NCBI GenBank assembly: GCA_031213475.1
Contig: JARUPZ010000004.1
Span: 1,002,501 to 1,066,500, forward strand
Origin: Nereocystis luetkeana
Lineage: Eukaryota; Sar; Phaeophyceae; Laminariales; Laminariaceae
Direction: 5' to 3'
Length of the DNA: 64,000 nucleotides
Below the pieces are notes generated by a model. That model ran no database searches. It was not told the origin of the DNA and saw nothing but the letters and a program-made list of their open reading frames with translations. Below, one piece after another: positions 1 to 64,000 of the stretch. The translations under genes were made by a program, and so were the position numbers. Every line of letters begins with the position of its first letter. Within the stretch, counting starts at the first letter, position 1.

Positions 1-710
1 TTCATGCATCCTTCATAATAAACAAAAACCCCATGTTTCGTTTTCCGTTTGACAACTGACTCTGTCTCTCACGGGGGACGGACATAGTCGTACATTCTCG
101 AAGAGGCTCATCCAGATCTGAGGGATTTTCCTGTGTCCACGCGTGGAGGAGGGCGGTGGTCCGTCTCCCTCCGTAGGACGGCAGACATTCATCAGGTCAA
201 GCGTGGTTCACGGAGGATCCTCGTTCCCAACAGCAAGCAGGAGATTTTTTCGGTGAGCCCGCGCTTTGCTTTCCGGTATTCTTGCTACACAAGGTTCGAA
301 GCCTGTGTTGCTGTCCCCGAAGGGCCAGACGATATGCATGCATTCCAAATTATCCACCAGGAGTGTCTCGGCGGTAGCTCACGGTGCAACCGCTGTGCGC
401 GGGGAGAGTGTAGATACGGTGTACGGTCTGTTGCTCGGTGCGTGCGTGCGAAAAATCAGGCTTTTCACTCTTCACTTACTTTGCAGTGCCGACCGACCCT
501 CACCGCGATGCGGTTTGCGGCTTTGATCTTTTTCGAAAGCGTTTTACAGGTAAAACCTACATTGATTGCTACCGGTACCTGGTGGGTAGCAATTTTGGGC
601 CATCAAAAGTCAAAAGCAAGTACCTCGTACCAGGTACACACTACCGCCGTACGTCTCGCGGGTCGAGGTGACTCGACCCGCATGAAACCTGTGTCTCACG
701 GGTCAATCGG

Positions 711-840
711 AAGGTGGCGGGTCGGATCGGGTCGGGTCAGGAGGTTTTGAAATCTCGCGGGTCGGGTCGGGTCGGGTCGGGCCAGGAGATTTTCAAATCT
801 CACGGGTCGGGTCAGGTCAGGAGGTTTTGATATCTCGCGG
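711..840. repeat. GGGTC-type short tandem repeat
   Basis: Imperfect runs of the pentamer GGGTC alternate with a block containing AGGAGGTTTTGA or AGGAGATTTTCA and then TCTCGCGGGTC. The block of roughly 50 bp repeats about three times just upstream of the foldback element. The same array is in copy B at about 58130-58255. Confidence 0.8.
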
Positions 841-1283
841 GTTCTGGCATCTTTTCACACCCTGTTCAGCTACGATAGCGGTCAGCTGTCTCGCAGAGAG
901 CTACTACTGCTGTTTGGAGAAGCTACGCAGCTAGCTGTTTGCAGACAGCTACTCTTCCTAGAAGCTGCGCAGCTAGCTGTCTACAGACAGTTATTGTTTC
1001 ACAAGGCTGCGCAGCTAGCTGCAGGCAGACGGCTATAGTTTTGAGAAGCTGAGCTGTCTACACACAGCTATCGTTTTGAGAAGCTACGCAGCTACCTAGA
1101 CGCAGGTAGCTTCGTACAGACAACTATTTTTTTGAAGGACTGCTGTGCAGCTAGCTGCCTAGAGACAGCTACTGTTTCAAAAGCCTGCTCCCTGAAGACA
1201 GCTACCTCGTATTGTTTTAGAAAGCTGCGCAGCTAGCTGCCTACAGACAGCTATTGCTTTCAGAAGCTACCAGGGTACGCAGC

Positions 1284-1316
1284 TATTAATAGCTGCGTAC
1301 AAGCAGCTACCTGGTA
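1284..1316. repeat. TA micro-insertions in a foldback unit
   Basis: In this tandem unit the usual GCAGCTAGCTGC reads GCAGCTATTAATAGCTGC, with TTAATA added at the TA. Slightly downstream, CAGCTATTG reads CAGCTACCTGGTATTG, with CCTGGTA added at the TA. Neighbouring units lack both additions, so the array shows filled and empty sites side by side. Confidence 0.8.
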
Positions 1317-1426
1317 TTGTTTTAAAGGGCTGCGCAGCTAGCTGCCTACAGACAGCTATTGCTTCAAAAGGCTGCGCAGCTAGCTGTCTGCAGGCAGCTA
1401 CAGGCCCAACTCAGCTATTGTCAGCT

Positions 1427-1432
1427 ACTACA

Positions 1433-1512
<80 letters not shown>
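1427..1512. repeat. (TAC)n microsatellite
   Basis: About 28 TAC triplets lie in the left foldback arm. The same tract in copy B (58917-58973) is shorter, and the mirrored position in the right arm has only a few TAG units, so it expanded after the arms formed. The leucine or threonine runs read from it are not coding evidence. Confidence 0.95.
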
Positions 1513-2270
1513 AGACAGCTGTTATAGTTGTAGTTTTGAGAAGCTGCGCAAGAGGGTGCGTGAACATAACGTGTACTTGTAGCATCGTCTTCCGTTGTTT
1601 TTAGCGTAGGATGAAGCTCATTTTCATCTATCCAAGATCGAATGCATACATACGTTGGATACAAATTCACCGGGGGGGAGGCAGGACAAGGCAACCGAGA
1701 AACGCACTGACATGATCTGCGACAAACAAAACGAGTGCTTGACGGGTGCGGATACGATTGATTGACTGATCGAACCAAACCAGAGTTACTACTACCGATT
1801 CAAATAGGAGTTTCCACGCGAGTGTGCCAGGATATTTTGAACAGATCATAGCTGCTGTTTCAGAATCAGCTACAGCTACCACATCCACACTACACGCACA
1901 CCACACCTCGCGGCAGCTAACACGCTTGGGCCACACAAAATATCCCGGCACACCCGCGTGGAAACTCCTGTATGAATCGGTAGTAGTAACTCTGGTTTGG
2001 TGTGATCTGTCAATCAATCGTATCCGCGCCCGTCAAGCACTCGTTTTGTTTGTCGCAGATCGTATCAGTGCTTTTATCGGTTGCCTTGTCCTGCCTCCCC
2101 CCGATGAATTTGTATCCAACGTATGTGTGCATTTGATCTTGGATAGATGGAAATGAGCTTTATCCTACACAAAAAACAACGGAAAACGATGCTACAAGCA
2201 CACGTTAAAGATGTTCACGCACCCTCTTGCGCAGCTTCTCAAAACTACAACTATAACAGCTGTCTGTAGG

Positions 2271-2278
2271 TATTAATA
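2271..2278. repeat. TATTAATA micro-insertion present in copy A
   Basis: Copy A reads GGTATTAATAGTAG where copy B (TA at 60087-60088) reads GGTAGTAG. The difference is a clean gain of TTAATA at a single TA dinucleotide. Confidence 0.85.
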
Positions 2279-4136
2279 GTAGTAGCTGACAATAGCTGAG
2301 TTTGGCATTTAGCTGCCTGCAGGCAGCTAGCTGCGCAGCCTTTTGAAACACTAGCTGTCTGTAGGCAGCTAGCCGCGCAGCTCTTTAAAATATAGCTGTT
2401 TGTACGCAGCTAGCTGCGTAGCTTCTCAAAACAATAGCAGTCTGTAGGCAGCTAGCTGCGCAGTTTTTCAAAACAATAGCTGTCTTCAGACAGCAGGCTT
2501 TTGAAACAACAGCTGTCTCTAGGCAGCTAGCTGCACAGCCCTTCAAAACAATAGTTAGTTGTCTGTAGGCAGCTAGCTGCTCAGCTTCTCACAACAATAA
2601 TAGCTGTCTGCCTGCAGCTAGCTGCGCAGCCTTTTGAAACAATAACTGTCTGTAGACAGCTAGCTGGACGCCATCGGCCGTAAAAATTGCCACGTCAGCC
2701 AGCACAATTGCCTCGACGGAAGCTGCTTTAGCTGCCCCAGACGCTGTGGACCTAATGTCTCCAACTCTAGGAGGACAAAGCACCGCCCGCCCGACTACAG
2801 ATAGAGCCGTATCCGGACTTGATTGAGTTACCGTGCGCGTGGTGTGCCATTTGGAGGCTCCAGTGGGGAGTACGGTGCGTGTAAAAAGTGCCTCAAAAGC
2901 CCTTTTCCGGGGCTGATGTAAACCATACCCCGATATCTACTGCTACAGAATAAGATGATGTTGATCGCTGATCATTTGTTTTTGTGAGCAACGCAACACA
3001 AGTGCCTCGGTGGGCTCCACCGGCACCCCTCTGGCCCCTTGGATCTCCCACTTGAACAACGTTTTTTCTATTATTTGCCGGCGAGGCGTTTTCTTGTTCA
3101 TTTTTTTTAACAGCCTTCTGCGTACCTGGTTTTCTCTCTTTTCATCGTGTTCGTTTTTCGGTGGTTTTCGTATTTTTTCCCTATTTCCTTTATCTACTTG
3201 CCCGTTTTTAATCAGTGTTCGATTTTCCGTCCGATGTTATCTTCGTTTTTCTTTTCGATTTTTTTATTGGCCCTTTTTTTTAGTGCCCACGATTTTCGTA
3301 TTACGCGTAAATTGTCGCACCTGCTTCTTCCGCTCGAATCACAAGAGAGCACCCAGCTCCGATCATAGCATGTCGTGGTTGAGCATCTACCACAGGCACA
3401 GCACAGCGCAATCAACTCTGCACAAAGCATTAACGTGTACTTCGAAGTATGCCAGGTACGTTTTTTACCGTAAACGTGCCGATCAGAGCCCGACGACAAT
3501 CGATCGTGCACCCAAAATCATGGGCGTCTGTCCGCTTCGCAATGTTTTTTGTTTCGGCGGGCATCTTGTAAGTATCGCCGTCCCCCCTTCCCGGGCCTTG
3601 TATATACGTATATAGCCCACATCATATGTGCACCCCTGAGCAGCAGTGCGATTGGATCGCCTGGCTACCTACCTCGTGCATACCTGGCTTCTATCTATAT
3701 ACTAGTATTGTCGTAAATATTTGCTGGCCTAAACCTTCCTCCAAACCACCGGCAGCTGCTGCTGTGTAACCCCGTGTTTTTTTTTCATGACGTTGTTCAG
3801 AGTGTATCTTCCGTGTGCCTCGCACGACTACAGGGATGTTATACGTATACCATGATATTAATATTAATAGTAAGAGTTCTATCCGATGGATCTCGAAGGA
3901 CCAGTTACCCCTCGTGTCAATGATATCCCCGTCCGTTCTTGCTGCAAGTAGCATAGGGCATACCGTAATAGGCCGATATAGTTTAACGTACTGCGATGTG
4001 GTACGGCTCTCACAATGAAGGTATGCTCGGAAATGTGCAGAGTAGCCCTCATTTCATATACCCGGCACCTGGTATGGGGTTAATCAATTTGGCTCTCGGA
4101 GAGACTCCTCGGTGACCACCTCGTTCGGGCATGACG

Positions 4137-4143
4137 TATAATA
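4137..4143. repeat. TATAATA micro-insertion present in copy A
   Basis: Copy A reads ACGTATAATAGCTC where copy B, near 61950, reads ACGTAGCTC. Five bases are added at one TA, giving TA-TAA-TA. A similar case lies at about 3609, where TA becomes TATATA in copy A, though dinucleotide slippage could explain that one. Confidence 0.75.
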
Positions 4144-4169
4144 GCTCATGCGTGAGGAAGTATAATGCT

Positions 4170-4342
4170 CTTTTTTTTTGCTCATCCCATTTATTATCTT
4201 CGCCCATCTTCTTCTCTCTCTCCTTCCAACTCGTAACTCAGATCCGGGGTCACATAGCAGGCTCGTCTCCCCCCTTCCCGCTACGGTACGTGCCTTCATT
4301 TTTATCGCGAGAAGATTTCAGCCTTTTCTTCCCTCGTCGACT
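4170..4342 (-). mobile_element. SINE fragment (3' module), copy A
   Basis: On the minus strand this reads from GAGTCGACGAGGGAAG through a body with GTACCGTAGCGGGAAG and TGTGACCCCGGATC to GGGATGAG and a short A tail (a T run on plus). It lacks the tRNA-like head seen in the copies at 41175-41511 and 59207-59555. The break falls at nearly the same base as in the copy at 55043-55233, so a separate headless family is possible. Short open frames through it are SINE sequence, not genes. Confidence 0.8.
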
Positions 4343-4811
4343 CTACGGAGTTACAGTGAATCGAAAATCGGACCATTGACGCCGAAATGACTCTTTGACA
4401 AGTCACATTGGGTCTACATAGGGCAACCAACAACTCGATTAGATTCAGATATTCATGTCGAGCGCTGCAATCCGGGGAGATTGGTTGAAATAGGTATCCC
4501 AAGGTATGCCCTGAGCATCAGTGGCGGGTACGCCGTTCGGCCCAGAGAATACTCGTACCGTGTCCTATTAATAAGAGTAAGTATGAACCCATATACTTTG
4601 AGCATCGGTTTTCTCCACCCGCACCGAAAATCTAACGAGTCGCAGGTCCCAGATATAAACGTTGCTCTGATGCCCATCAACTACAAGAAGAGATACCCAA
4701 CGCTTGCTCACTCGCCGAAGAGCACACAACCGAGCGAAAATTATCCCCGACTTACAGCTGGCTACCTGGCCCAAGGTGGCCCGGTGAGCCTAAAATCGCG
4801 CAAAAATACCA

Positions 4812-4980
4812 CGAGGCACGATTCTTCGATACATGGAGGAGGACCAAGCCCCAAGAACTGCAGTGACGGTCCGATGACACTGAGTTATGTGGTCTGAGGA
4901 ACGATTTTTCGATACACGGAGGAGGACCAAGCCCCGAGAACGTCAGTGACGGTCCGACGACACTGAGTCATGCGGTCGTG
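4812..4980. repeat. Tandem pair of about 82-bp units
   Basis: Two adjacent units share TTCGATACA, GGAGGAGGACCAAGCCCC and CAGTGACGGTCCGA with a handful of substitutions. The pair recurs at about 62624-62792 in copy B. Confidence 0.8.
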
Positions 4981-6192
4981 TAGATCCCTTTAGAGGCTGC
5001 GATCGTGCCGTGCCCGCAGATATCTGGTTGTGCCTTATATCGGGAGGCTATAGGACCGTGTTGGTTTTGCTTCGGTTTAATAAAAAGCTAAAAAAGCGCG
5101 TCGGCTATGAGTTCAACCGATCGGCAGATTTGTGGCAGAATATGTTATTGTTCCCTATATACATATATACATACACCACGAGAAAGCCGTTCCTAGGCGT
5201 ATCTACCGAAACACGAACGGTTTCGAATTTTCAAAAAAACGATAATCTCCCTTTTTTATCGCAAAACGTCTGAATTGCCCCCTGAACACCTCGTTGTCCA
5301 TCGCTGTTACCGGCAGTTGTACGAGGGATACCATTATTATTATTATACAAGCCTTTTGAGTATGTAGACTCGCACACTGAAAGTTCCAGTAGTACCACGT
5401 ACACTACAACGCAAACGAGCCCACGTGTTTTCGTTCAGTTGAGACCCACCATACACGCCTTGAATTCAGAGTATTCACTCAAAAGCTACGAAATTGACAG
5501 TTTTTAGACTCGTGCTTAGAATATTGGAACATACTCGAAGCAGTTTATGATACCGTGCCTGGTACGAAACTTCGCGTGTATTATCTGGTTGGATCGCAGG
5601 TTGGATCTATCTCTCTAAACGAGCATGTACAATTGTACAATAATGTACATACAACATCCATCAAACTGTTGTCATCGGTCGCACCTATTGACGCCGAGAT
5701 CCTCCGAGGCACGTCAGTAGTAAGTAAGTGTCTCCGTATTCAAACCGCGCAAATATATTAAAAGCCAGTGTACTATTACTACATACTTGCCGTACGTACC
5801 ATCGCACACTGGCAACACTGGCAGTGACGTCATTCCAGTGGAAACGCTCGCTCGTGATTTCCTTCGGTTGAGCTGATGTACTGTAACAGGTACCAGGTAC
5901 ACATTACAAGTAGGATTTGCTCAAAGAAAGGCTAAATGACAGAGAAACGAGGAATGTGTACGATACATGTGTACGTATACATCAGGGATATTATTAATAG
6001 TACCGCAGATTTAAGTGAGGACGTGCCGTTAACACCGCAAAAACGCCAAAAAATGTGGAAACCGCTCGCTAGAACCGCTGCCAAAAATCCGTTCGAGGTG
6101 GTAAACCAGGGGACGGATCGCTATCATCCCTTGTTGGGCAAGACCACTCACTTTGCACCCCTGTTTGCTCTATCACCTATCACCCGTCCAAA

Positions 6193-8247
6193 AGTATTAT
6201 TAATAGTGAGCTTCAATTCAAACGTACACTGATTGCACAGTAGTCATGGCATGATGATGATGGCAGGCAGTCCAAGTATACAGAGTACCAGATATTATTA
6301 ATAGTACGGAACGCTATAATATTGATAGAATTCCAAAAATATACGAGGGGTTTCCACTATGCATGGAGACGTTTGCCCCCAGGGGCCAGCACAAAAATCT
6401 CGAAACCGCGAAATAGATCCAACCGGCATGCGATTTTGATAACCGCTGACAACCTGCATCTCACGGCTGACCTCTCTACCCTATCTCCCCTTCCGGAGCA
6501 TGCCGGCCTCCCATACGAAACCTTGGAGCCCATATTATCATGTTTGCTGTGTACCGTTCTTCGCCTACGCGGCAGTACGCTTGAATCGCCTTGCTACATA
6601 TCAGGTACATACCTGGTACATATCTACTGTATATGTGTTACTTTTTGCTGGCCCTAAACCTGCTTCCAAACCGCCGGCAGATGCGCAACCCTGCATTCTG
6701 TGCATGGCGTCTGTTGCATTCTGTGCATGGCGTCTGTTGCGCGGGCCTGGCAACGATATAGGCATAGTATATGTTAATAGTAATCTATTGATAGGTACCG
6801 GTGAAGACAGCTTTTCAATCTGTCGGTGGTCGTTTTTTTTTTATATGTTCTGTATCCCCGGGGTAAAAGCGCCTCAACATGCAGTGGAAGCCCTTGTAAA
6901 ACGTTCACGCTACAGCAGCACAGCAGTAGGCACTATCATAGGCAGCACACCCCAGCATCACAGCATGGCCGCACAGGGGACCTCCTGTGGTAGCCTGGGG
7001 TCTGGTGAGCTAGAAACCATCTCACATCACACGTCTCATCACTTGATCAACACCACGCTGACTTGTTAGTCCGTGCTAAAAACGCATGTTTGCTTCTCGT
7101 TGTGCACGTATTTACCGATTTAAAAACGGAAAAGGTTATCTCCAGATTCCGAGAGGTTGTTTGAGTTTGGTTGTACCAGTAAGCGATATCTCGATCATGC
7201 CGAACCTGACTTCTATGAGCGTGGCATAAAATATTCAAATATTCGATTTGAAGAAAACACTAGAAATATGATTCGCCGATCCGTCAAAAGTTATCATTGC
7301 CACGCGCTTCAGCTTGGTCGATTGGTAAGGCTATAACATGTTTGTCGTGCTATGATCAAAACTGCGCAAGTAATGAGCTTGCAGCTATCCTCCTCAGTCC
7401 CGCCGACATCTAGCTCGCCGCGAGTGCAATGAGCACATTTGAACTCTACTAGTAACAAGCTTGGCGAAAAGTCAGTCTACCGCACAGCACAAGTTGCAGA
7501 TGCCCACGAGTTTCGTGGTATACTGCTGCTGCAATCGAGTAGGCCTGCTGAATACCCACTTTTAGCTCGATTTCGCCCGATTTTCGCCCATTTTTTATTT
7601 TTGCGGTTTCTCCGCGCATCCCCGGATGCCCCCTTCAGTTTTTTTAAACGTTTTCGTATAAATCCGAGTAAACATGTAACATATTTTGAGCTGAAACCCA
7701 GCATAGAACACTGCCCCGAAAATACGGTGGCGGGGGTCATACCTGTAGAGAATAGGAGGCGTACATATTGTGTCTCGTGTCTCGTATCTTCCCCGCTGAG
7801 CCTTGGGCCGCTTTTTCGCGATGCCGTCCGTCTTGATACTTTCGTGTTTTCTGCTTCGTTTGTTTACGGCTCATGCTTGTACAGGAAGTATACAGTATAA
7901 CTACAGTACCAGGCATCAGCTTGAAACATACCCGGATGATACCACGGAATGGGATGCCAAACGTGCTTCATGCAAGATATGGAAACTTCGATATTTCGAT
8001 GTTATCAATACTTGACTTTCGATGCGATACCCAGCACGATTATGGGCAGCGATATGATATCACGAGACCCAAGCTAAGCAACTCCTATATCCCACTATAT
8101 CGGGGAACGTAAGGGCAGCCCGGGTTGTCATTTTTGATTCCCAAATGGCAGCTGGTCGCCCCCCCGCCCCTGGTGCGTATATACTGATTTTTCGTACGTC
8201 AATACCTTGGTACATGTTTTTCTCTGCTCGTCCCTTGCGTCTGGCAG
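6193..8247. other. Noncoding stretch before gene A
   Basis: No frame here has convincing codon structure or a recognisable domain. It holds TATTAATA at about 6200 and 6297, TACCTGGTA at 6610, two perfect 23-bp tandem units at 6693-6738 and TACAGTA pairs near 7888-7905. Upstream exons of gene A may lie here, but I could not identify them. Confidence 0.5.
6693..6738. repeat. Perfect 23-bp tandem duplication
   Basis: The unit begins GCATTCTGTGCATGGCG and occurs twice back to back without mismatch. Confidence 0.9.
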
Positions 8248-8619
8248 GCACCGGAGAACGACCAGCCTATGGAAGCGCCGACACCGCCACCCGTGGGGCT
8301 ACCGATGGACCTGCCTGTGGACGAAGCACCGACAAACCCGACTGTTGAGCTACCGACGGACCAGCCTGTGGCAGCGCCGACTGCGCAACCGGTAGACCCA
8401 TCGATGGAGCCTCCAGAGGTGGCAGCGACCGAACAGACAGCGGTACCGGCGGAGCCTAGAGCAGTGGCACCATCGACGCCACCCGTGGACGTGCTGTCGA
8501 AACCGCCGGCAGCAGTACCCATCGAACCGTTTGCAGCGGCATCTGCTGAACCTCCGGCGGCGGCGGCGGCGGCTGCTGCGGCTGCGGCGGCGGCGGCGCC
8601 TGCGGCTCCATTAGCGGAG
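8248..8619 (+). CDS. Gene A, Pro/Ala/Val-rich exon
   Basis: A 372-nt exon, phase 0 at both ends, follows the acceptor GTCTGGCAG and ends before the donor GAG|GTGCGT. It encodes 124 residues of low-complexity sequence: degenerate repeats of the type PVDxPxxxP and PTxxPV with regular acidic residues, then a run of about 14 alanines from a GCG/GCT tract, ending APLAE. No catalytic domain is visible. It is probably a disordered linker or wall-type extension. Because of the repetitive GC-rich codons the other strand is open too, so the strand call rests on the splice sites and on the phase match to the exon at 11331. No initiating ATG can be placed and upstream exons are expected. Unrecognised protein. 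Confidence 0.5.
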
Positions 8620-31720: not shown

Positions 31721-31736
31721 TACCTGGTACCTGGTA
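31721..31736. repeat. Overlapping double TACCTGGTA
   Basis: Two TACCTGGTA units share their central TA, as TA-CCTGG-TA-CCTGG-TA. The same compound form occurs at 52589-52604. It would arise if a TA created by one event served as target for a second. Confidence 0.9.
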
Positions 31737-43333: not shown

Positions 43334-43388
43334 CGAGTGGCTCGTCATGCCCCAAGCCTGCAGTGCTTCGCCCGGCTAGTTTATCACA

Positions 43389-44279
43389 GTGATTAACGAA
43401 GCCTTCAAAGGTCTGGCACAGGTGGCAGCCTACCTAGATGATGTGATCGTCTTCGACTCTGATCCGACGGCCCACGTCAAGACGATAGGAGCCTTCTTCG
43501 AACGCCTGCGCAAACACAACCTCGCGTTCTCCCCCTCGAAGGCTCGCCTCGGCGCCACGGACGCTAATTTTCTGGGCCACTCCACTTCGCCCGCGGGTAT
43601 ACGCCCCAATGCGGAAAAAGGTTCGGCTTTGGTGAAAATGCACATGCTCAAGAGCCTCAAACAGGTCCATGCGCTGATGGGCGGCGTGGGATATTGTCGC
43701 AAATTCCTACCCGACCTGTTCAAACGGATCCGCCCTCTCACTGCCCGCCTCCGGAGTGGGGTTAAGTACGTCTTTACGCCGACCGTGGAAGTTATCGTTC
43801 GCCAGTTCCCCGCCGAGCTCGCTGCCCCGCCAATTTTGGTCTGTCCGGACTGGGATGCTGTAGCCGACGGCTCCCGCCCCTTCCACGTGTACTGTGACGC
43901 CTGCGTCGACGGTTTTGGTGCTGCGCTAAAACAAGAACAACCGGACGGCTCGGTACAGCCCATTGCTTATACCAGCCGCGCCACCCTCGATTCCGAGAGG
44001 CGCTGGACCCCGTTGGACCTGGAAGCTGGCAGTATTATCTGGGCCATCAAACGACTCCGAGGCCACCTATGGGGCATGAGGTTTCGTGTATTTTCGAACC
44101 ACAAAGCACTTGAGAGCATCGACAAGGTAGGGGACCACAACGCGCGAGTCCAGCGGTGGCTCGAGTTCCTCACCGCGTTCGACTACACCCTCGAGTGCCG
44201 CAAGGGCAGCGCCAACGGAAATGCTGATTTTCTCTTCCGCTTGCCGGAGCCCGCCACAGAAGAACCGCAGTGGGTCTAG
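43389..44279 (+). pseudogene. Gypsy RT C-terminal part and RNase H
   Basis: Begins just after the frameshift with YLDDVIVFD (the YxDD catalytic box), then NFLGHSTSPAGIRPN, the RT thumb GGVGYCRKFLPDLFKRIRPL, and RNase H with YCDACVDGFGAALKQ (catalytic Asp), SRATLDSERRWTPLDLEA (TLxxxExxYxxxExE region with Tyr to Trp) and VFSNHKALESI, where the TDHxAL Asp is Asn. Ends at TAG 44279. 296 residues, the longest intact pol segment. Confidence 0.92.
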
Positions 44280-45515
44280 CCGCCTCACCCCCGACAAGGA
44301 CGGCCGTATCTTCCACATCCGAGCCTGCGGGCTTCGCACTCGCTCTTCTCCAAACCCCGGTGTAGGTTTGGGGGGAATGGTGCCCCGCACCGAAAGTGCC
44401 GTCTTGGGTGGGCTACCTTCAACCTCTTCGAACTTTCACGATTTTCGCGCACACGGGCCACGTATGAGGATTGACGACCTCTCTGCTCTTTCGGGGAGAT
44501 TCGTCGCTGGTGTCTCTGCTTCCGTCGCCACCGTCGATCGCCATCTTAGCTTGAGGGTTTTTTCACCCATCGCCAACACCGCTTTTCGCTTCGGTTTTTG
44601 CCGTACCCTCCGGGGGCGACCAGGGCTCCGCAGAAGCCCCCGCCTCAGCGATGATTTCCGCCCAGCGCGCTCCTCCCCCGACGAACACTTTACAGGGAGA
44701 AGATTCCGCCGTGATCACTGCTTTGGCTGCGTCTGCCCCTTCAGGTCAGGGCTCTTCAGAAGTCCCCGCTGCAGCGACGATTGTCGCCCAGCGCGCTCCT
44801 CCCCTGACAAGCACTTTACAGGGAAAAGGTTCCGCTGTGATCAATGATCCGGCCGCCTCTGCCCCGGCGCCTCTGAATGTTCTGCCGTCTTCGGGCCGCA
44901 TCTCCACTCGGACGCGCCGACGAACAGCCACCGCCGCTGGCACCGCGCCGCATGCTGTTGATCATGGCTTCGGGTCTGGCGGGGCCCTTAGATCATCACC
45001 CCGGCGTGCTATCACCCCGCCGCGAGCGCCACGGCCGCGACCACCCGCACCCGTCTTTTTGGCCCCCGGCTCCTCCCGCTTCATCGGCCCCGACTGTACC
45101 CATCCCGTGCGACCGTGACCGCGCCGAGCCCATGGGAACTCCTCTTTTACGGCTTCCGCCGCCAACTGACGCACCGCCCGTCACCACGACCGACTTGGAC
45201 GCCCTCGGCGCAGCCGCCGAATTTCCGTTCGGTGATTCCGCAGGGCGCTATTCACACGCCGACTGGGCTCGGGAACAACAGGCCGAGCCCGCGTGCAACG
45301 CCTCCATGCGCTACATAGCTCTTGGCCGGCGAGACGTTTTGCCAGTCGAGTTTTTGTCGTGTTTCCCTTCGCACCAGCGCCCCCCCTTTTTCTGAGGTTC
45401 AGGAGCTGGCTACCAAAGGCCGCTTGCACACCACCGACGCGGGTATTGTTCTACTCGTCCGCCAGCCGTCTTCCCCCCTTGCGTCAGACACGGAACGCCC
45501 GGTGGGTCGTACGGC
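44280..45515 (+). pseudogene. Pol spacer with tandem duplication
   Basis: Between RNase H and integrase lie about 1.2 kb of Ala/Pro/Ser-rich sequence, uncommon in standard gypsy. Two units of about 129 bp (about 44630-44860) share GCCCAGCGCGCTCCTCCCC, ACTTTACAGGGA and TCCGC.GTGATCA. No domain is recognised. It may be an inserted or rapidly evolving linker. Confidence 0.55.
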
Positions 45516-46103
45516 ATGTTTATAGAACGACAAGCCTATTCGCAATTATGTGCCGCTGCTCATGCACCCCTGGGTCATGCAGGCGTGCCATTCCACGGTT
45601 TCCTGCGCCACCTAGGAACCGCGCTCACCCTACATATGCTCGAGCGTTTCTGCTGGTGGGTCGGTATGAGCATCTGCACCCGGTGGTGGCTACGCAGCTG
45701 CTTGAAGTGCAAAGCACGGAAAACGTCACGGCAGACGGTCCGGCGGCCCACCATCACAATGTCCTTGCTAGAAGGGCCCGGCATCACCGTCAGCATCGAC
45801 TATTTTGGCCCTCTCCCAGTGACGCCTCGGGAAAATACCTATATCTTGCTTTTCACTGATCGTTTCAGCCGCCGAGCCGACATGTACGCCGTCACAGCGG
45901 CAGAGTTCGCCGCTGAGGGCGCGGCTCACGTTCTCATCAACTGGTATATTCCCCTCTGGAGATGCCCGCGCAGCATCCTCTCGGACAGCGGCCTCTATTT
46001 CTGCTCCAAGCTTTCGCACGCCGTATATATCAGCTTCTCGGGGTTCGAACAATTGCCACCAGCTCCTACCACCCAAACGGCAACGGTGGGGTGGAACGTG
46101 TAA
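45516..46103 (+). pseudogene. Gypsy integrase: zinc finger and core, part 1
   Basis: HAPLGHAGVPFHGFLRH and SCLKCKARK give the HHCC zinc finger. The catalytic core has ITVSIDYFGPLPVTPRENTY (first Asp) and SILSDSGLYF (second Asp; SDxGxxF). A frameshift near 46000-46090 separates the third catalytic region. Confidence 0.85.
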
Positions 46104-53645: not shown

Positions 53646-53753
53646 TTACGGGGGACCATAGTTAGTAGGACCTATCGTATACATAAAAACTTATATACTT
53701 GACCATTTTTACGAACAATATTCTGTCCTATTGACTATGATGGTCCCCCGTTA
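53646..53753. mobile_element. MITE, CGGGGG-end family, copy 1
   Basis: Inverted ends TTACGGGGGACCATAG and (reverse) TAACGGGGGACCATCATAG enclose about 108 bp with TAGGACC near both ends and ATTTTTAC in the centre. There is no coding capacity. Unlike copies 2, 3 and 5 it has no TACCAGGTA in its centre. Confidence 0.85.
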
Positions 53754-55042: not shown

Positions 55043-55233
55043 GTCGATGCGAGTCGACGAGGGAAGGAAAGGCTGAAATCTTCTCGCGATAAAAATGAAG
55101 GCACGTACCGTAGCGGGAAGGGGGGGAGAAGAGCCTGCTATGTGACCCCGGATCTGAGTTACGAGTTGGAAGGAGAGAGAGAGGAAGATGTGTGAAGAAA
55201 ATAAATGGGATGAGCGAAAAAAAAAAAAAAAAA
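55043..55233 (+). mobile_element. SINE 3' module with poly(A), headless
   Basis: Runs from TCGATGCGAGTCGACGAGGG through GTACCGTAGCGGGAAGGG and TGTGACCCCGGATC to GGGATGAGCG and 17 A. It has no tRNA-like head. It starts within a few bases of where the fragment at 4170-4342 starts. Confidence 0.85.
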
Positions 55234-55293
55234 GGGTCGTATTACCAAACCCTTTTGAGCCTCAGTTGTTTAGTTGGGGATACTATTACACCA

Positions 55294-55404
55294 TTACGGG
55301 GGGCCATAGTTAATAGGACCTATGGTATCCATAAAACATACCAGGTATATATTTAATCATTTTTACCAACAATATTTGGTCCTATTAACTACGGTCCCCC
55401 GTAA
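55294..55404. mobile_element. MITE, CGGGGG-end family, copy 3
   Basis: TTACGGGGGGCCATAGTTAA on the left and TTAACTACGGTCCCCCGTAA on the right, about 111 bp. The central TACCAGGTA is at 55339. This is the best-preserved pair of inverted ends. Confidence 0.9.
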
Positions 55405-55592
55405 TTCTATTGACATTAATACTATTTATTAGCACTACTATTGATAGTCTTCCTGAGCGTCACATCGGTTGTGATTTATTTGTCGTAGGATACTGCCGCG
55501 CTTTTGGTCTGGAAAGTTCTTCACTTTCTGTTATTATAGTCGTTTATTAGAACAACACTACACATTGTCGGATGGCAAGCACAATAATAATA

Positions 55593-55640
55593 TTACGGGG
55601 GACCATAGTAAATAGGACCAAATATTGTTAGCACCACTAC
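55593..55640. mobile_element. MITE, CGGGGG-end family, half copy 4
   Basis: The left end TTACGGGGGACCATAGTAAA followed by TAGGACCAAATATTGTTAG is present, but the right end is missing. It sits directly after the dispersed repeat shared with 49736. Confidence 0.75.
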
Positions 55641-55651
55641 TATTAATAACA

Positions 55652-55861
55652 TTACGGGGGGGCATAGTAAATAGGACCGAATATTGTTAGTAAAAATATG
55701 TAAATATATACCAGGTAGTATTTTTTTGTGTATACCATAGGCCCTATTAACCCCTTTAGGACCGCAGTCCCATTTTGGGGACAAACTACTTGAAGTTTGA
55801 GTGGTTTGCCCCCAAAACGGGGCTCCGGTTCTAAAAGAGTTATAACTATGGCCCCCCGTAA
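55652..55861. mobile_element. MITE, CGGGGG-end family, copy 5 with nested insertion
   Basis: Left end TTACGGGGGGGCATAGTAAA, right end ATAACTATGGCCCCCCGTAA. Removing the nested 55751-55840 element leaves a normal-length MITE. The central TACCAGGTA is at 55709. ATA precedes and TA follows the ends, compatible with a TA target duplication. Confidence 0.85.
55751..55840. mobile_element. piggyBac-like MITE nested in a MITE
   Basis: About 90 bp directly after a TTAA. The left end is CCCCTTTAGGACCGCAGTCC; the right end read on minus is CTCTTTTAGAACCGGAGCCC. The inner arms CATTTTGGGG and CCCCAAAACG continue the inverted repeat. TTAA targeting with CCC(C)TTT ends is characteristic of piggyBac elements. 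The right flank reads TTATAA, so the TTAA duplicate is altered by two bases. The host sequence TTAA is intact in the sister MITEs. Confidence 0.75.
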
Positions 55862-55964
55862 TACTTGTTTGTATGCCCGTAATAGATAATCATTCAACAA
55901 TAGAACCGAACCAAAGAGACAAGTGGTCTTTTAGGGGCGCCCGCACAAGGGTTTCAATAAACGA

Positions 55965-56060
55965 AGCGTTCGAAGTGAGAGCTTTGTACCCGCGTCATCG
56001 ACGACGCCGAAATGCGAGGGTGTTTCGTACCTTCTGACAACTGAGCTGAGCTATAATACG
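55965..56060 (-). repeat. tRNA-like remnant
   Basis: On minus, TAGCTCAGCTCAGTTGTCAG resembles an A box with D-loop and GCGGGTACAAAGCTC weakly a B box. Spacing and stems are poor. Probably a SINE head of another family. Confidence 0.3.
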
Positions 56061-56179
56061 TGTAGGGAGGGGGGAAATGTGGATCGATTACCTATTAAAT
56101 GCGTGGAGGCGTGGTGACGGTAAGCGTTATTTTTACCAATCAATCCGCCGGAGGATATAAAAAAAATATTAAAAAAAAT

Positions 56180-56494
56180 GGCCAGGTTAACCTCGAATTC
56201 TACTTGTTTGAGTCCTGTGTTCGAGCCCCAGGTGGGTCGGACTTTGACTTTATTTGCAAAAATAAAAATAAAAAAGGATTCAATTGTTGAGAGCGCCTTG
56301 CAGCGTGGGTATAGGCACAATTCGATGCGAGTCGACGAGGGAAGAAAAGTCTGAAATCTTCTCGCGATAAAAATGAAGGCACGTACCGTAGCGGGAAGGG
56401 GGTAGAAGAGCCTGCTATGTGACCCCGGATCTGAGTTACGAGTTGGAAGGAGAGAGAGAAGAAGATGTGCGAAGATCATAAATGGGATGAGGAA

Positions 56495-56549
<55 letters not shown>

Positions 56550-56554
56550 AAAAA

Positions 56555-56649
<95 letters not shown>
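56180..56649 (+). mobile_element. tRNA-derived SINE with long (AAAT)n tail
   Basis: The head is truncated in the A box (CCAGGTTAACC retained). The B box is GTGTTCGAGCCCC. The linker and full 3' module follow to GGGATGAGG, then about 150 bp of AAAT repeats. The tail has grown as a microsatellite. The long Tyr/Leu/Phe/Ile frame on minus is this tail and not a gene. Confidence 0.9.
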
Positions 56650-56650
<1 letters not shown>

Positions 56651-56776
56651 ACTGCTACGACGAAACGACAAACGACGTCGATTGCACGATGTATCGATGG
56701 GAAGCTTCTGCTTTGTGGCTTGTGGGCTATGTTTGGGCGATGAAGGTACAAAACGGGATATTTTAACGTCATAGCC

Positions 56777-56911
56777 CATTGTTATTGCTGTTGCTGTTGT
56801 TGTTGTTGTTGTTGTTGTTGCTGTTGTTGTTGTTGTTGTTGCTGTTGTTGTTGTTGCTGTTGTTGTTGCCGTTGTTGTTGTTGTTGCTGTTGCTGTTGCT
56901 GTTGTTGTTAT
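56777..56911. repeat. (GTT)n microsatellite with GCT interruptions
   Basis: About 45 triplets, GTT with scattered GCT and one GCC, just beyond the SINE at 56180. The Thr/Ala run on minus is translation of this tract. Confidence 0.95.
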
Positions 56912-57417
56912 TGTTCTCACATTAACTCACAATACAATGCAGTCCGTGGTCGCAGGACAGGCTCCAACAATAACTAACTCTGGAGCGGAAGAAATTCCTC
57001 GGTAAAAACAAAACAAGCAAATCATGGTCCATCTTCTACACCTCAAACAAAAAATGAGGTCCGCGCACGTACGTACGTATCAGATACCTGGTAGGTGCGG
57101 TACGCTGTACAAGTCGCCACAGCTACCGAGAAGACCACATACATACCCAGAAGATTTTATAGCTTGTGGGCGCTGTGTGACACGTGTGACGTGTGACATG
57201 TGACATGGTTCGCGATGCAATCCTCAGATTTGCAATTGACACGCTATCAATGTATTTACTGGAGGGATATATGGGCAGGTCAACACCACAGCCGCTTGGC
57301 TGCTTATCGACCGACTTGGTGCCACCTGCACTCTGCATGCCTTGATGACCCCGTTTGTGAGGCGCAGAGGAGTTTCGGTTCTCGTCTCTCGTCGTCTCGT
57401 CGTCGAAAATAAACGGT
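56912..57417. other. Stretch before copy B
   Basis: About 500 bp, no supported gene. TACCTGGTA is at 57085. The block GTGGTCGCAGGACAGGCTCC near 56946 resembles GTGGTCACAGGGCAGGCTCC near 10857, followed in both by AATAACTCTGGAG-like sequence, so it is another dispersed repeat. Confidence 0.55.
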
Positions 57418-57970
57418 TTCATGCATCCTTCATAATAAACAAAAACCCCATGTTTCGTTTTCCGTTTGACAACTGACTCTGTCTCTCACGGGGGACGGAC
57501 ATAGTCGTACATTCTCGAAGAGGCTCATCCAGATCTGAGGGATTTTCCTGTGTCCACGCGTGGAGGAGGGCGGTGGTCCGTCTCCCTCCGAAGGACGGCA
57601 GACATTCATCAGGTCAAGCGTGGTTCACGGAGGATCCTCGTTCCCAACAGCAGGAGATTTTTTCGGTGAGCCCGCGCTTTGCTTTCCGGTATTCTTGCTA
57701 CACAAGGTTCGAAGCCTGTGTTGCTGTCCCCGAAGGGCCAGACGATATGCATGCATTCCAAATTATCCACCAGGAGTGTCTCGGCGGTAGCTCACGGTGC
57801 AACCGCTGTGCGCGGGGAGAGTGTAGATACGGTGTACGGTCTGTTGCTCGGTGCGTGCGTGCGAAAAATCAGGCTTTTCACTCTTCACTTACTTTGCAGT
57901 GCCGACCGACCCTCACTGCGGTGCGGTTTGCGGCTTTGATCTTTTTCGAAAGCGTTTTACAGGTAAAACC

Positions 57971-57979
57971 TACCAGGTA
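57971..57979. repeat. TACCAGGTA micro-insertion present in copy B
   Basis: Copy B reads AACCTACCAGGTACATTG where copy A (TA at 558-559) reads AACCTACATTG. Seven bases are gained at one TA. A separate 4-bp tandem difference lies just downstream. Confidence 0.85.
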
Positions 57980-58916
57980 CATTGCTACCGGTACCTGGTG
58001 GGTAGCAATTTTGGGCCATCAAAAGTCAAAAGCAAGTACCTCGTACCAGGTACACACTACCGCCGTACGTCTCGCGGGTCGAGGTGACTCGACCCGCATG
58101 AAACCTGTGTCTCACGGGTCAATCGGAAGGTGGCGGGTCGGATCGGGTCGGGTCAGGAGGTTTTGAAATCTCGCGGGTCGGGTCGGGTCGGGTCGGGCCA
58201 GGAGATTTTCAAATCTCACGGGTCGGGTCAGGTCAGGAGGTTTTGATATCTCGCGGGTTCTGGCATATTTTCACACCCTGTTCAGCTACGATAGCGGTCA
58301 GCTGTCTCGCAGAGAGCTACTACTGCTGTTTCGAGAAGCTACGCAGCTAGCTGTTTGCAGACAGCTACTCTTCCTAGAAGCTGCGCAGCTAGCTGTCTAC
58401 AGACAGTTATTGTTTCAAAAGGCTGCGCAGCTAGCTGCAGGCAGACGGCTATAGTTTTGAGAAGCTGCGCAGCTATTAATAGCTGCCTGCAGACAGCTAC
58501 CAGGTATTGTTTTAAAAGGCTGCGCAGCTATTAATAGCTGTCTACACACAGCTATCGTTTTGAGAAGCTACGCAGCTACCTAGACGCAGGTAGCTTCGTA
58601 CAGACAACTATTTTTTTGAAGGACTGTGCAGCTAGCTGCCTAGAGACAGCTACTGTTTCAAAAGCCTGCTCCCTGAAGACAGCTACCTCGTATTGTTTTA
58701 GAAAGCTGCGCAGCTAGCTGCCTACAGACAGCTATTGCTTTCAGAAGCTACCAGGGTACGCAGCTATTAATAGCTGCGTACAAGCAGCTACCTGGTATTG
58801 TTTTAAAGGGCTGCGCAGCTAGCTGCCTACAGACAGCTATTGCTTCAAAAGGCTGCGCAGCTAGCTGTCTGCAGGCAGCTACAGGCCCAACTCAGCTATT
58901 GTCAGCTACTACAACT

Positions 58917-58917
58917 A

Positions 58918-58973
<56 letters not shown>
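58917..58973. repeat. (TAC)n microsatellite, copy B
   Basis: The triplet run matches 1427-1512 but is about 30 bp shorter, which shows length instability between the two large repeat copies. Confidence 0.95.
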
Positions 58974-59206
58974 AGACAGCTGTTATAGTTGTAGTTTTGA
59001 GAAGCTGCGCAAGAGGGTGCGTGAACATCTACTTGTAGCATCGTCTTCCGTTGTTTTTAGTGTAGGATGAAGCTCATTTTTATCTATCCAAGATCGAATG
59101 CACACATACGTTGGATACAAATTCACCGGGGGGGAGGCAGGACAAGGCAACCGAGAAACGCACTGACATGATCTGCGACAAACAAAACGAGTGCTTGACG
59201 GGTGCG

Positions 59207-59555
59207 TTTTTTTTTTTTTTTTTTTTTTCCATCCCATTCATTATCTTCGCACATCTTCTTCTCTCTCTCCTTCCAACTCGTAACTCAGATCCGGGGTCAC
59301 ATAGCAGGCTCTTCTCCCCCCTTCCCGCTACGGTACGTGCCTTCATTTTTTTATCCCGAGAAGATTTCAGCCTTTTCTTCCCTCGTCGACTCGCATCGAA
59401 TTGTGCCTACCCACGCTGCAAGGCGCTCTCAACAATTGAATCCCTTTTTTTTTATTTTTGCAAATAAAGTCAAAGTCCGACCCTCCTAGGGCTCGAACCC
59501 AGGACTCAAACAAGTAGAATTCGAGGTTAACCACTTGAACCACCGGGGCGACCGG
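59207..59555 (-). mobile_element. Full-length tRNA-derived SINE, only in copy B
   Basis: Read on minus, the element starts with a tRNA-like head: an A-box-like GGTTCAAGTGGTTAACC and a B-box-like GGGTTCGAGCCC about 45 bp further on. It continues through an A-rich linker and the shared 3' module, and ends in GGGATG plus poly(A). A and B boxes are internal RNA polymerase III promoter elements. Copy A has none at the matching position (about 1748), giving an empty site. GCTTGA occurs on both sides, possibly the remains of a target duplication with a small deletion. Confidence 0.88.
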
Positions 59556-59686
59556 CTTGATACGATTGATTGACTGATCGAACCAAACCAGAGTTACTAC
59601 TTCCGATTCAAATAGGAGTTTCCACGCGAGTGTGCCAGGATATTTTGAACAGATCACAGCTCTGCTGTTTCAGAATCAGCTACAGC

Positions 59687-59694
59687 TATTAATA
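59687..59694. repeat. TATTAATA micro-insertion present in copy B
   Basis: Copy B reads CAGCTATTAATACCAC where copy A (TA at 1877-1878) reads CAGCTACCAC. TTAATA was gained at a TA in the foldback loop. Confidence 0.85.
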
Positions 59695-60203
59695 CCACAT
59701 CCACACTACACGCACACCACACCTCGCGGCAGCTAACACGCTTGGGCTACACAAAATATCCCGGCACACTCGCGTGGAAACTCCTGTATGAATCGGTAGT
59801 AGTAACTCTGGTTTGGTGTGATCTGTCAATCAATCGTATCCGCGTCCGTCAAGCACTCGTTTTGTTTGTCGCAGATCGTATCAGTGCTTTTATCGGTTGC
59901 CTTGTCCTGCCTCCGCCCGATGAATTTGTATCCAACGTATGTGTGCATTCGATCTTGGATAGATGGAAATGAGCTTTATCCTACACCAAAAACAACGGAA
60001 AACGATGCTACAAGCACACGTTAAAGATGTTCACGCACCCTCTTGCGCAGCTTCTCAAAACTTCAACTATAACAGCTGTCTGTAGGTAGTAGTAGCTGAC
60101 AATAGCTGAGTTTGGCATTTAGCTGCCTGCAGGCAGCTAGCTGCGCAGCCTTTTGAAACACTAGCTGTCTGTAGGCAGCGAGCTGCGCAGCCCTTTAAAA
60201 CAA

Positions 60204-60212
60204 TACCTGGTA
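60204..60212. repeat. TACCTGGTA micro-insertion present in copy B
   Basis: In this foldback unit AATA is followed by CCTGGTA. The matching unit in copy A, near 2390, and neighbouring units have a plain TA before the CTG motif. The flanks also carry small substitutions, so this pair is slightly less clean than the others. Confidence 0.7.
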
Positions 60213-61981
60213 ACTGTTTGTACGCAGCTAGCTGCGTAGCTTCTCAAAACCATAGCAGTCTGTAGGCAGCTAGCTGCGCAGTTTTTCAAAACAATAGCTG
60301 TCTTCAGACAGCAGGCTTTTGAAACAACAGCTGTCTCTAGGCAGCTAGCTGCACAGCCCTTTAAAACAATAGTTGTCTGTAGGCAGCTAGCTGCTCAGCT
60401 TCTCACAACAATAATAGCTGTCTGCCTGCAGCTAGCTGCGCACCCTTTTGAAACAATAACTGTCTGTAGACAGCTAGCTGGACGCCATCGGCCGTAAAAA
60501 TTGCCACGTCAGCCAGCACAATTGCCTCGACGGAAGCTGCTTTAGCTGCCCCAGACGCTGTGGACCTAATGTCTCCAACTCTAGGAGGACAAAGCACCGC
60601 CCGCCCGACAATAGATAGATCCGTATCCGGACTTGATTGAGTTACCGTGCGCGTGGTGTGCCATTTGGAGGCTCCAGTGGGGAGCACGGTGCGTGTAAAA
60701 AGTGCCTCAAAAGCCCTTTTCCGGGGCTGATGTAAACCATACCCCGATATCTACTCCTACAGAATAAGATGATGTTGATCGCTGATCATTTGTTTTTGTG
60801 AGCAACGCAACACAAGTGCCTCGGTGGGCTCCACCGGCACCCCTCTGGCCCCTTGGATCTCCCACTTGAACAACGTTTTTTCTATTATTTGCCGGCGAGG
60901 CGTTTTCTTGTTCATTTTTTTTTTTTACGGCCTTCTACGTACCTGGTTTTCTCTCTTTTAATCGTGTTCGTTTTTCGGTGGTTTTCGTATTTTTTCCCTA
61001 TTTCCTTTATCTACTTGCCCGTTTTTAATCAGTGTTCGATTTTCCGTCCGATGTTATCTTCGTTTTTCTTTTCGATTTTTTTATTGGCCCTTTTTTTTAG
61101 TGCCCACGATTTTCGTATTACGCGTAAATTGTCGCACCTGCTTCTTCCGCTCGAATCACAAGAGAGCACCCAGCTCCGATCATAGCATGTCGTGGTTGAG
61201 CATCTACCACAGGCACAGCACAGCGCAATCAACTCTGCACAAAGCATTAACGTGTACTTCGAAGTATGCCAGGTACGTTTTTTACCGTAAACGTGCCGAT
61301 CAGAGCCCGACGACAATCGATCGTGCACCCAAAATCATGGGCGTCTGTCCGCTTCGCAATGTTTTTTGTTTCGGCGGGCATCTTGTAAGTATCGCCGTCC
61401 CCCCTTCCCGGGCCTTGTATATACGTAGCCCAGATCATATGTGCACCCCTGAGCAGCAGTGCGATTGGATCGCCTGGCTACCTACCTCGTGCATACCTGG
61501 CTTCTATCTATATACTAGTATTGTCGTAAATATTTGCTGGCCTAAACCTTCCTCCAAACCACCGGCAGCTGCTGCTGCTGTGTAACCCCGTGTTTTTTTT
61601 TCATGACGTTGTTCAGAGTGTATCTTCCGTGTGCCTCGCACGACTACAGGGATGTTATACGTATACCATGATATTAATATTAATAGTAAGAGTTCTATCC
61701 GATGGATCTCGAAGGACGAGTTACCCCTCGTGTCAATGATATCCCCGTCCGTTCTTGCTGCAAGTAGCATAGGGCATACCGTAATGGGCCGATATAGTTT
61801 AACGTACTGCGATGTGGTACGGCTCTCACAATGAAGGTATGCTCGGAAATGTGCAGAGTAGCCCTCATTTCATATACCCGGCACCTGGTATGGGGTTAAT
61901 CAATTTGGCTCTCGGAGGGACTCCTCGGTGACCATCTCGTTCGGGCATGACGTAGCTCATGCGTGAGGAAGTATAATGCTC

Positions 61982-62155
61982 TTTTTTTTTTGCTCATCCC
62001 ATTTATTATCTTCGCCCATCTTCTTCTCTCTCTCCTTCCAACTCGTAGCTCAGATCCGGGGTCACATAGCAGGCTCGTCTCCCCCCTTCCCGCTACGGTA
62101 CGTGCCTTCATTTTTATCGCGAGAAGATTTCAGCCTTTTCTTCCCTCGTCGACTC
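61982..62155 (-). mobile_element. SINE fragment (3' module), copy B
   Basis: This is the duplicate of 4170-4342 at the matching place in the second large repeat, so the fragment was already there before duplication. Confidence 0.8.
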
Positions 62156-62623
62156 TACGGAGTTACAGTGAATCGAAAATCGGACCATTGACGCCGAAAT
62201 GACTCTTTGACAAGTCACATTGGGTCTACATAGGGCAACCAACAACTCGATTAGATTCAGATATTCATGTCGAGCGCTGCAATCCGGGGAGATTGGTTGA
62301 AATAGGTATCCCAAGGTATGCCCTGAGCATCAGTGGCGGGTACGCCGTTCGGCCCAGAGAATACTCGTACCGTGTCCTATTAATAAGAGTAAGTATGAAC
62401 CCATATACTTTGAGCATCGGTTTTCTCCACCCGCACCGAAAATCTAACGAGTCGCAGGTCCCAGATATAAACGTTGCTCTGATGCCCATCAACTACAAGA
62501 AGAGATACCCAACGCTTGCTCACTCGCCGAAGAGCACACAACCGAGCGAAAATTATCCCCGACTTACAGCTGGCTACCTGGCCCAAGGTGGCCCGGTGAG
62601 CCTAAAATCGCGCAAAAATACCA

Positions 62624-62792
62624 CGAGGCACGATTCTTCGATACATGGAGGAGGACCAAGCCCCAAGAACTGCAGTGACGGTCCGATGACACTGAGTTAT
62701 GTGGTCTGAGGAACGATTTTTCGATACACGGAGGAGGACCAAGCCCCGAGAACGTCAGTGACGGTCCGACGACACTGAGTCATGCGGTCGTG
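62624..62792. repeat. Tandem pair of about 82-bp units, copy B
   Basis: Counterpart of 4812-4980 within the second large repeat, with the same two-unit arrangement. Confidence 0.8.
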
Positions 62793-64000
62793 TAGATCCC
62801 TTTAGAGGCTGCGATCGTGCCGTGCCCGCAGATATCTGTTTGTGCCTTATATCGGGAGGCTATAGGACCGTGTTGGTTTTGCTTCGGTTTAATAAAAAGC
62901 TAAAAAAGCGCGTCGGCTATGAGTTCAACCGATCGGCAGATTTGTGGCAGAATATGTTATTGCTCCCTATATACATATATACATACACCACGAGAAAGCC
63001 GTTCCTAGGCGTATCTACCGAAACACGAACGGTTTCGAATTTTCAAAAAAACGATAATCTCCCTTTTACTCGCAAAACGTCTGAATTGCCCCCTGAACAC
63101 CTCGTTGTCCATCGCTGTTACCGGCAGTTGTACGAGGGATACCATTATTATTATTATACGAGCCTTTTGAGTATGTAGGCTCGCACACTGAAAGTTCCAG
63201 TAGTACCACGTACACTACAACGCAAACGAGCCCACGTGCTTTCGTTCAGTTGAGACCCACCATACACGCCTTGAATTCAGAGTATTCACTCAAAAGCTAC
63301 GAAATTGACAGTTTTTAGACTCGTGCTTAGAATATTGGAACATACTCGAAGCAGTTTATGATACCGTGCCTGGTACGAAAATTCACGTGTATTATCTGGT
63401 TGGATCGCAAGTTGGATCTATCTCTCTAAACGAGCACGTACAATTGTACAATAATGTACATACAACATCCATCAAACTGTTGTCATCGGTCGCACCTATT
63501 GACGCCGAGATCCTCCGAGGCACGTCAGTAGTAAGTAAGTGTCTCCGTATTCAAACCGCGCAAATATACTAAAAGCCAGTGTACTATTACTACGTACTTG
63601 CCGTACGTACCATCGCACACTGGCAACACTGGCAGTGACGTCATTCCAGTGGAAACGCTCGCTCGTGATTTCCTTCGGTTGAGCTGATGTACTGTAACAG
63701 GTAACAGGTACACATTACAAGTAGGATTTGCTCAAAGGCTAAATGACAGAGAAACAAGGAATGTGTACGATACATGTGTACGTATACATCAGGGATATTA
63801 TTAATAGTACCGCAGATTTAAGTGAGGACGTGCCGGTAACACCGCAAAAACGCCAAAAAATGTGGAAACCGCTCGCTAGAACCGCTGCCAAAAATCCGTT
63901 CGAGGTGGTAAACCAGGGGACGGATCGCTATCATCCCTCGTTGGGCAGACCACTCACTTTGCACCCCTGTTTGCTCTATCACCTATCACCCGTCCAAAAG

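Follow-up and report, generated by a model that had tools for sequence, protein, structure and literature searches.

Abundant TA-bounded micro-insertions in the genome of the brown alga Nereocystis luetkeana are probably excision footprints of small TA-inserting DNA transposons

Footprints of TA-inserting transposons are already known. Excision of the Tc1/mariner transposon Sleeping Beauty leaves TACAGTA or TACTGTA (PMC4378557), the footprints of ZB are 0-3 bp long, with 2-4 bp in its superfamily (PMC7913693), and those of Passer 0-4 bp (PMC9976928). Stowaway footprints retain 1-4 bp of the ends, and their sites are reusable (PMC1925063); for Stowaway-like miniature inverted-repeat transposable elements (MITEs) and mariner elements, a small duplication and short end sequences are reported usually to remain (PMC4561436). 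A survey of the brown alga Ectocarpus reported 17 Mariner-Tc1 families with almost 12,000 copies, mostly non-autonomous, and its main text contains no word beginning with footprint, excision, mite or palindrom (PMC12477816). Here we analyzed a stretch of 64,000 nt of Nereocystis luetkeana (GCA_031213475.1, contig JARUPZ010000004.1, positions 1,002,501 to 1,066,500; the window) together with stretches sampled elsewhere in the 465,085,209-bp genome (the L-numbered loci). Two classes of words with a short core between two TAs were studied, TACCWGGTA (CCWGG class) and TATTAATA (TTAA class). Since TACCAGGTA and TACCTGGTA are reverse complements, TACCWGGTA is one word in two orientations. Both classes together are probably scars of small DNA transposons that inserted and left again.

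The words are like the Sleeping Beauty footprint in having few terminal bases between two TAs and a near-palindromic core. However, Sleeping Beauty is an experimental transposon with about 100-200 candidates per tumour (PMC4378557), whereas each class here is present in the order of 10^5 in a genome assembly; the cores CCWGG and TTAA are longer than that of Sleeping Beauty, and the enrichment of TACWGTA in this genome is no more than two- to threefold. Triticeae Stowaway is likewise a TA-duplicating MITE with short terminal fragments inside TAs and re-insertion beside an older footprint, but five varied footprints at one intron site were described (PMC1925063), in contrast to two uniform cores genome-wide in the present data. 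The MITE described below has TTACGGGGG ends, not a Stowaway end. The Stowaway terminal inverted repeat (TIR), which we take to begin with CTCCCTCC, differs from the TIR of this MITE, which starts TTACGGGGGACC. Internal eliminated sequences (IESs) of Paramecium also have TA boundaries and are removed in development, leaving one TA; here the short insert itself remains in the assembled genome, and this architecture argues against a Paramecium-type IES.

First, the frequency of the words was determined. In the window, TACCWGGTA was matched 30 times and TATTAATA 35 times; dinucleotide shuffles gave on average 0.40 (100 shuffles) and 0.70. A first-pass annotation of the window had counted about 30 and about 36, and its 18 coordinates for TACCAGGTA/TACCTGGTA were all exact. 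Part of these matches are mutual copies (628=58044, 1308=58789 and five TATTAATA pairs), because positions 1-6200 recur at 57418-64000. Single and tandem words in the window include the following.

628..636, no strand: TACCAGGTA (CCWGG class), with a second copy at 58044-58052
1308..1316, no strand: TACCTGGTA (CCWGG class), among the 30 in the window; the shorter paralogue reads ACAACTATTTTTT, flanking bases 22/28 equal
3856..3869, no strand: tandem TATTAATATTAATA, two TTAA units with one TA in common
31721..31736, no strand: tandem TACCTGGTACCTGGTA, two CCWGG units with one TA in common

The genome-wide count, which the first-pass annotation had suggested as a check, showed 182,395 TACCWGGTA against 1,744 for the reversed word (about 105-fold) and 93,112 TATTAATA against 10,689 (8.7-fold), the reversed word being a composition control and not an exact expectation. 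The excess above these controls was about 180,700 for CCWGG and 82,400 for TTAA, together about 263,000, or about one per 1.8 kb. In a discovery set of 237.4 kb (18 stretches of 10 kb and window positions 1-57400), 104 CCWGG and 64 TTAA words were observed, while an order-3 Markov model predicted 2.3 and about 4.5; in a held-out set of seven later stretches (70 kb) the numbers were 46 against 0.8 and 21 against 1.9. CCWGG words were present in 24 of 25 sampled 10-kb stretches and TTAA words in 22. This spread, together with base frequencies around the sites that showed weak target preference only, agrees with the earlier statement that the words do not belong to any one repeat. The density of CCWGG was uneven (mean 5.0, variance 19 in the 25 stretches), from 0 in L010 to 22 in L036 (G000:C11:3000001-3010000), a hot stretch which also carries 7 TATTAATA and 8 TACTCGTA/TACGAGTA in its 10 kb.

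These cores are specifically bordered by TA. Counted in 150-base bins, the core CCAGG had TA flanks in 92 bins, and none of the 15 other palindromic flanks exceeded 4 bins (mean 1.5); TTAA had TA flanks in 54 bins against at most 6 for other flanks. In the discovery set, 104 of the 556 CCWGG stood between two TAs. Among 16 flanks, TA had the most enriched words (15, compared with 9 for AC, several of which were shifted readings). Chance or composition as the source of the words was ruled out by the shuffles and Markov models, by the counts of reversed words and by the held-out set.

Next, related copies of the same site were compared. The ends of the window are a near-identical direct duplication, in which the following features were found.

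1..6200, plus strand: left copy, 98.99% identity, 6137 aligned bases, 62 substitutions
57418..64000, plus strand: right copy of the same duplication, about 57.4 kb from the left copy
2271..2278, no strand: TATTAATA (TTAA class), plain TA in the right copy (GTAGGTATTAATAGTAG vs GTAGGTAGTAG, flanking bases 28/28 identical)
59687..59694, no strand: TATTAATA (TTAA class), plain TA in the left copy (CAGCTATTAATACCAC vs CAGCTACCAC, flanking bases 28/28 identical)
4137..4143, no strand: TATAATA with the 3-nt core TAA, where the other copy has TA; this would fit a TTA...TAA end
57971..57979, no strand: TACCAGGTA without counterpart in the left copy; an extra 4-nt difference alongside, not a clean event
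60204..60212, no strand: TACCTGGTA without counterpart in the left copy; adjacent bases differ too, not a clean event

Thus TATTAATA stood against a plain TA twice between the copies, once per direction, and the presence of two clean differences of the TTAA kind between copies separated by 62 substitutions points to recent activity. The copies also differed by short tandem duplications and repeat-array differences. The right copy carries an extra 352-bp poly-T-led insertion at 59207, and arrays of approximately 42-bp foldback units on GCAGCTAGCTGC and CTGCGCAG, long inverted repeats, lie within 918-2666 and 58327-60480.

Paralogue alignments showed 405 indels of 3-14 nt, of which 52 had TA on both sides of the longer copy. 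An indel passed as TA-type if the longer copy had a TA at each edge and 10 or more of 14 bases matched on each side, and TA in the shorter copy was no requirement; some indels were counted in both duplication copies (1308 and 58789), and these blast-based counts depend on alignment thresholds. Among the 7-nt indels 12 of 44 were of the TA type, nine of them CCWGG, and among the 6-nt indels 8 of 40, four of them TTAA. The cleanest CCWGG case was TACCAGGTA at L020:4987 against TA in L037, with 27 of 28 flanking bases equal. In L012, a MITE copy of 119 bp consisted of the 105-bp element and two 7-bp CCTGG units. Because related copies carry either a plain TA or TA-core-TA, at least these words are true micro-insertions, as the first-pass annotation had proposed for the whole set.

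The MITE is 105 bp long, has TTACGGGGGACC...GGTCCCCCGTAA as its termini and duplicates its TA target; it begins TTACGGGGGACCATAG and ends in its inverse, the TIR being about 27 bp. In the TA duplication, the short TIRs and the many copies it agrees with MITEs of the Tc1/mariner type. Of 29 complete copies (90-130 bp), 24 were exactly 105 bp and 27 had TA on both sides, the two exceptions lying in the window, at 53646 and 55294. The sample leans to intact copies, since 20 of its 29 members came from the best-scoring genome matches. Matches were spread across the genome (1220 candidates, of which 40 were scored), and the nine complete MITEs in the 331-kb set give, by a very rough extrapolation, 10^4 genome copies. 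No match to the MITE end was found in other sequence collections. The window holds these copies.

53646..53753, no strand: MITE copy, 108 bp; TA/TTACGGGGGACC at the left, a degraded end without TA at the right
55294..55404, no strand: MITE copy, 111 bp, with TACCAGGTA inside at 55339; both ends without TA flank
55593..55861, no strand: cluster of more MITE ends (55593 plus, 55652 plus, 55861 minus)

Another foldback family, whose ends are close to TTAACCC and whose core is AACCGCAGTCCCGTTTTGGGGAC, occurs at L021:2486-2580, at L039:7763-7857 and at 55748 of the window.

The MITE at L003:828 had six empty paralogues (in L002, L003, L038 and L040), of which five keep TA and one reads TG, and the MITEs in L044 and L047 had one empty paralogue each, in L025. 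A MITE-internal site, TTTTTACTAACAATA, was found at 34 places; 33 were without insertion (TA kept in 27), and L040 had TTAATATTAATA, which contains TTAA units. In L053 and L055 a whole nested MITE stood at the TA of this site, which is thus seen empty, filled and scarred, the states that a footprint model requires. As judged by these comparisons, insertion of the MITE is TA-specific and duplicates TA, and scars lie at sites that the MITE has used.

The target preference was also investigated. MITE insertion sites and TATTAATA flanks had the preference TAC-TA-GTA in common: the frequencies of T, A and C at -3 to -1 were 0.52/0.74/0.65 for MITE ends and 0.53/0.57/0.54 for TATTAATA, compared with 0.29/0.28/0.20 for all TA. 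Under the TATTAATA flank logo, 23 TA-flanked MITE ends scored +33 bits and 38 further ends +59 bits, while under the CCWGG logo they scored -27 and -37 bits; 10 of 33 pattern matches and 2 of 40 ends had been left out for want of TA, and a few of the 38 further ends share one MITE-internal site and are not independent. None of 5000 random TA samples reached either TTAA score. In L048 and L059 the MITE directly adjoins TATTAATA, which would explain tandem scars. There were 7 TTAA doubles and 19 CCWGG pairs (overlapping loci included), and these tandem units fit re-insertion at an existing scar; slippage may add to them, since equal centres outnumber opposite ones, 15 to 4 (L004-L006 being one locus).

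In the mechanism that we propose, a DNA transposon would insert at TA and duplicate it, and later excision would leave a few terminal bases of the element; the cell would then rejoin the ends to give TA-core-TA. TTAA would be the scar of the 105-bp MITE with ends TTACGGGGG...CCCCCGTAA: staggered cuts would leave a 3-nt overhang TTA on each side, the last two bases, TA, would pair, and fill-in would give TTAA. If the overhangs instead overlapped completely, with a single mismatch, the product would be TAA or TTA, expected to be rarer (one case, at 4137). By analogy, CCAGG/CCTGG would be the scars of other TA-inserting families. For the MITE, terminal bases left between TAs were found by sequence comparison alone, and the TTAA class is very likely an excision footprint of this kind. 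The earlier remark that no described feature class matches the words was therefore too strong, since TTAA fits the excision footprint of a TA-inserting MITE. By rough extrapolation, TTAA scars are several times as numerous as the copies of their likely parent that are still resident.

The CCWGG class had a definite target preference of its own, for A/G at -1, A at -6 and A/T at -7. This preference differs from that of TTAA, and a different enzyme is likely. By analogy with TTAA, we infer that CCWGG may well be an excision footprint too; searches of up to 331 kb revealed no parent among the matches listed. The searches covered 244 kb, then those loci with L001-L008 and L036, and then 331 kb. 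At a MITE hot site, AAAAACCTACCWGGV gave 145 forward and 144 reverse genome matches, compared with 1 and 2 for the controls, and the 100 matches listed comprised CCAGGG 83, CCAGGC 7, CCAGGA 5, CCTGGG 4 and CCTGGA 1. L063, L064 and L067 continued as the MITE with altered bases, while L066, read from 8 bases past the match, was other sequence. The hot-site CCAGGG is probably an inherited MITE variant, not the parent. L065 (G000:C1:21794861-21794915) consists of a MITE-like half, then CCAGGCATA, then telomere-like TAACCC repeats inside the contig. A TA-bounded inverted repeat at L010 6410-9154 was dropped as a candidate parent, as the inverted repeat runs on past the TA.

We also analyzed other cores between two TAs. 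The core CAGCAG/CTGCTG was strong (26 against 1.1 expected; held-out 10 against 0.4) and, by analogy, is probably the scar of another TA-inserting family. CWG was weaker (98 against 32; held-out 22 against 9.8), and the mixed cores CAGCTG and CTGCAG occurred 3 and 0 times. The earlier view that several classes share one TA-core-TA design was upheld; of the cores it named, CCWGG, TTAA and CAGCAG/CTGCTG stood out against Markov models, and CWG did so less. The words TACTCGTA/TACGAGTA were enriched about fivefold (56 against 9.9 in 237 kb, 15 against 3.2 in 70 kb), and TATTGATA and TATTCATA, one base off TATTAATA, about threefold in the discovery set and less than twofold in the held-out set. One-mismatch neighbours of CCWGG showed an excess of 0.61 of the perfect count, which we read as continuing or fairly recent origin. 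Three cores were dropped: CCG/CGG (held-out 10 against 8.8), CTCCGAG (held-out 0, with a dense cluster in L022 in the discovery set) and CCAGGG (11 in discovery, 0 held-out). An asymmetry of CCAGGG to CCTGGG (11 to 1), taken as a hint of the parent's end, was set aside, neither word being present in the held-out set. A mismatch-repair argument, which relied on the A/T centre of CCWGG and on CAGCAG and CTGCTG being linked, was also dropped, because the pairs are reverse complements and orientation alone accounts for them. A tandem array with TACCTTGCAG and TACCATAGGC at L018:6700-8110 imitates TA-core-TA enrichment and was treated as local. In viral contigs, TACCWGGTACCWGGTA was found in 9 stretches, read as chance without a computed expectation.

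Several results weigh against the footprint explanation. A 5-nt core exceeds the 0-3 bp of ZB and the 0-4 bp of Passer. CCWGG is the commonest scar, yet it is without a recognised parent: with the thresholds applied, no element ending in CCAGG/CCTGG was recognised among the matches listed in up to 331 kb, and five short hot-site stretches held variant CCAGG words or other sequence, with no full parent. The scheme offers no explanation for TACTCGTA, whose core is not near-palindromic, and it does not predict the excess of one-mismatch neighbours of TATTAATA, 1.45 of the perfect count, a figure partly due to TATTGATA/TATTCATA and inflated by other words such as TAATAATA. The search for the transposase domain DDE_3 (PF13358) gave no match, while its control was matched in 3 of 14 genomes, and none of 27 translated frames had a DNA transposase match in Pfam. 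Transposase_1 (PF01359) also gave no match, but its control gave no match anywhere either. Other coding remains were seen: window positions 43380-46103 carry LTR-retrotransposon-like remains that match RNase H, reverse transcriptase and the integrase zinc-binding domain and, weakly and under its cut-off, the integrase core. A stretch of L011 encodes an NMD3 OB fold, whose matches with a named organism include Hapterophycus canaliculatus (73% identity) and Scytosiphon promiscuus (83% over 42% of the query), in line with a brown alga. A protein search with one frame of the window returned a single match, which carried neither name nor taxon.

The unmatched parent and PF13358 search, the uninformative PF01359 search and the 5-nt core would suit another origin of CCWGG, direct micro-insertion at TA, such as could result from abortive integration if a transposase or a transposase-derived host enzyme were at work, with TTAA still a scar; so would the abundance of the word, about twice that of TATTAATA. 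A TA-specific enzyme would then have written a fixed 7-bp unit about 180,000 times with no conventional transposon. We consider this unlikely: CCWGG is built like TTAA, for which there is a likely parent, it has its own target preference, and its parents may be rare or extinct. Spread within one ordinary repeat family or by replication slippage is very improbable. Some words do lie inside MITE copies and the window duplication, and equal centres prevail in tandem pairs, but the tandems include opposite centres and mixed classes, the clean empty sites carry a single TA, and both the weak flanking preference and the occurrence in nearly all sampled stretches speak against it. Near-palindromic words are common as binding sites; however, selected binding sites or a mutational bias to palindromes, in place of insertions, can hardly be credited here, as the TA borders are exact and filled and empty paralogues with identical or near-identical flanks contradict it.

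Excision footprints with terminal bases between TAs have been described, so that the kind is known, while the number and uniformity of the words stand out and, as far as our searches reached, are new. Among the papers listed by our literature searches, which did not reach most subscription journals, none reported such words from a brown alga. Excision is usually invisible, since transposon surveys count the copies that stayed. If the words are scars, this genome amounts to a tally of departures, about 263,000 words above the controls in 465 Mb, and excision rates, target choice and end-joining would be measurable from the sequence itself. Such scars would add to the known origins of small insertions in brown algae one that has been neglected; TA-transposon scars might even be among the leading sources of small insertions in the lineage, and a countable genome-wide record of excision.

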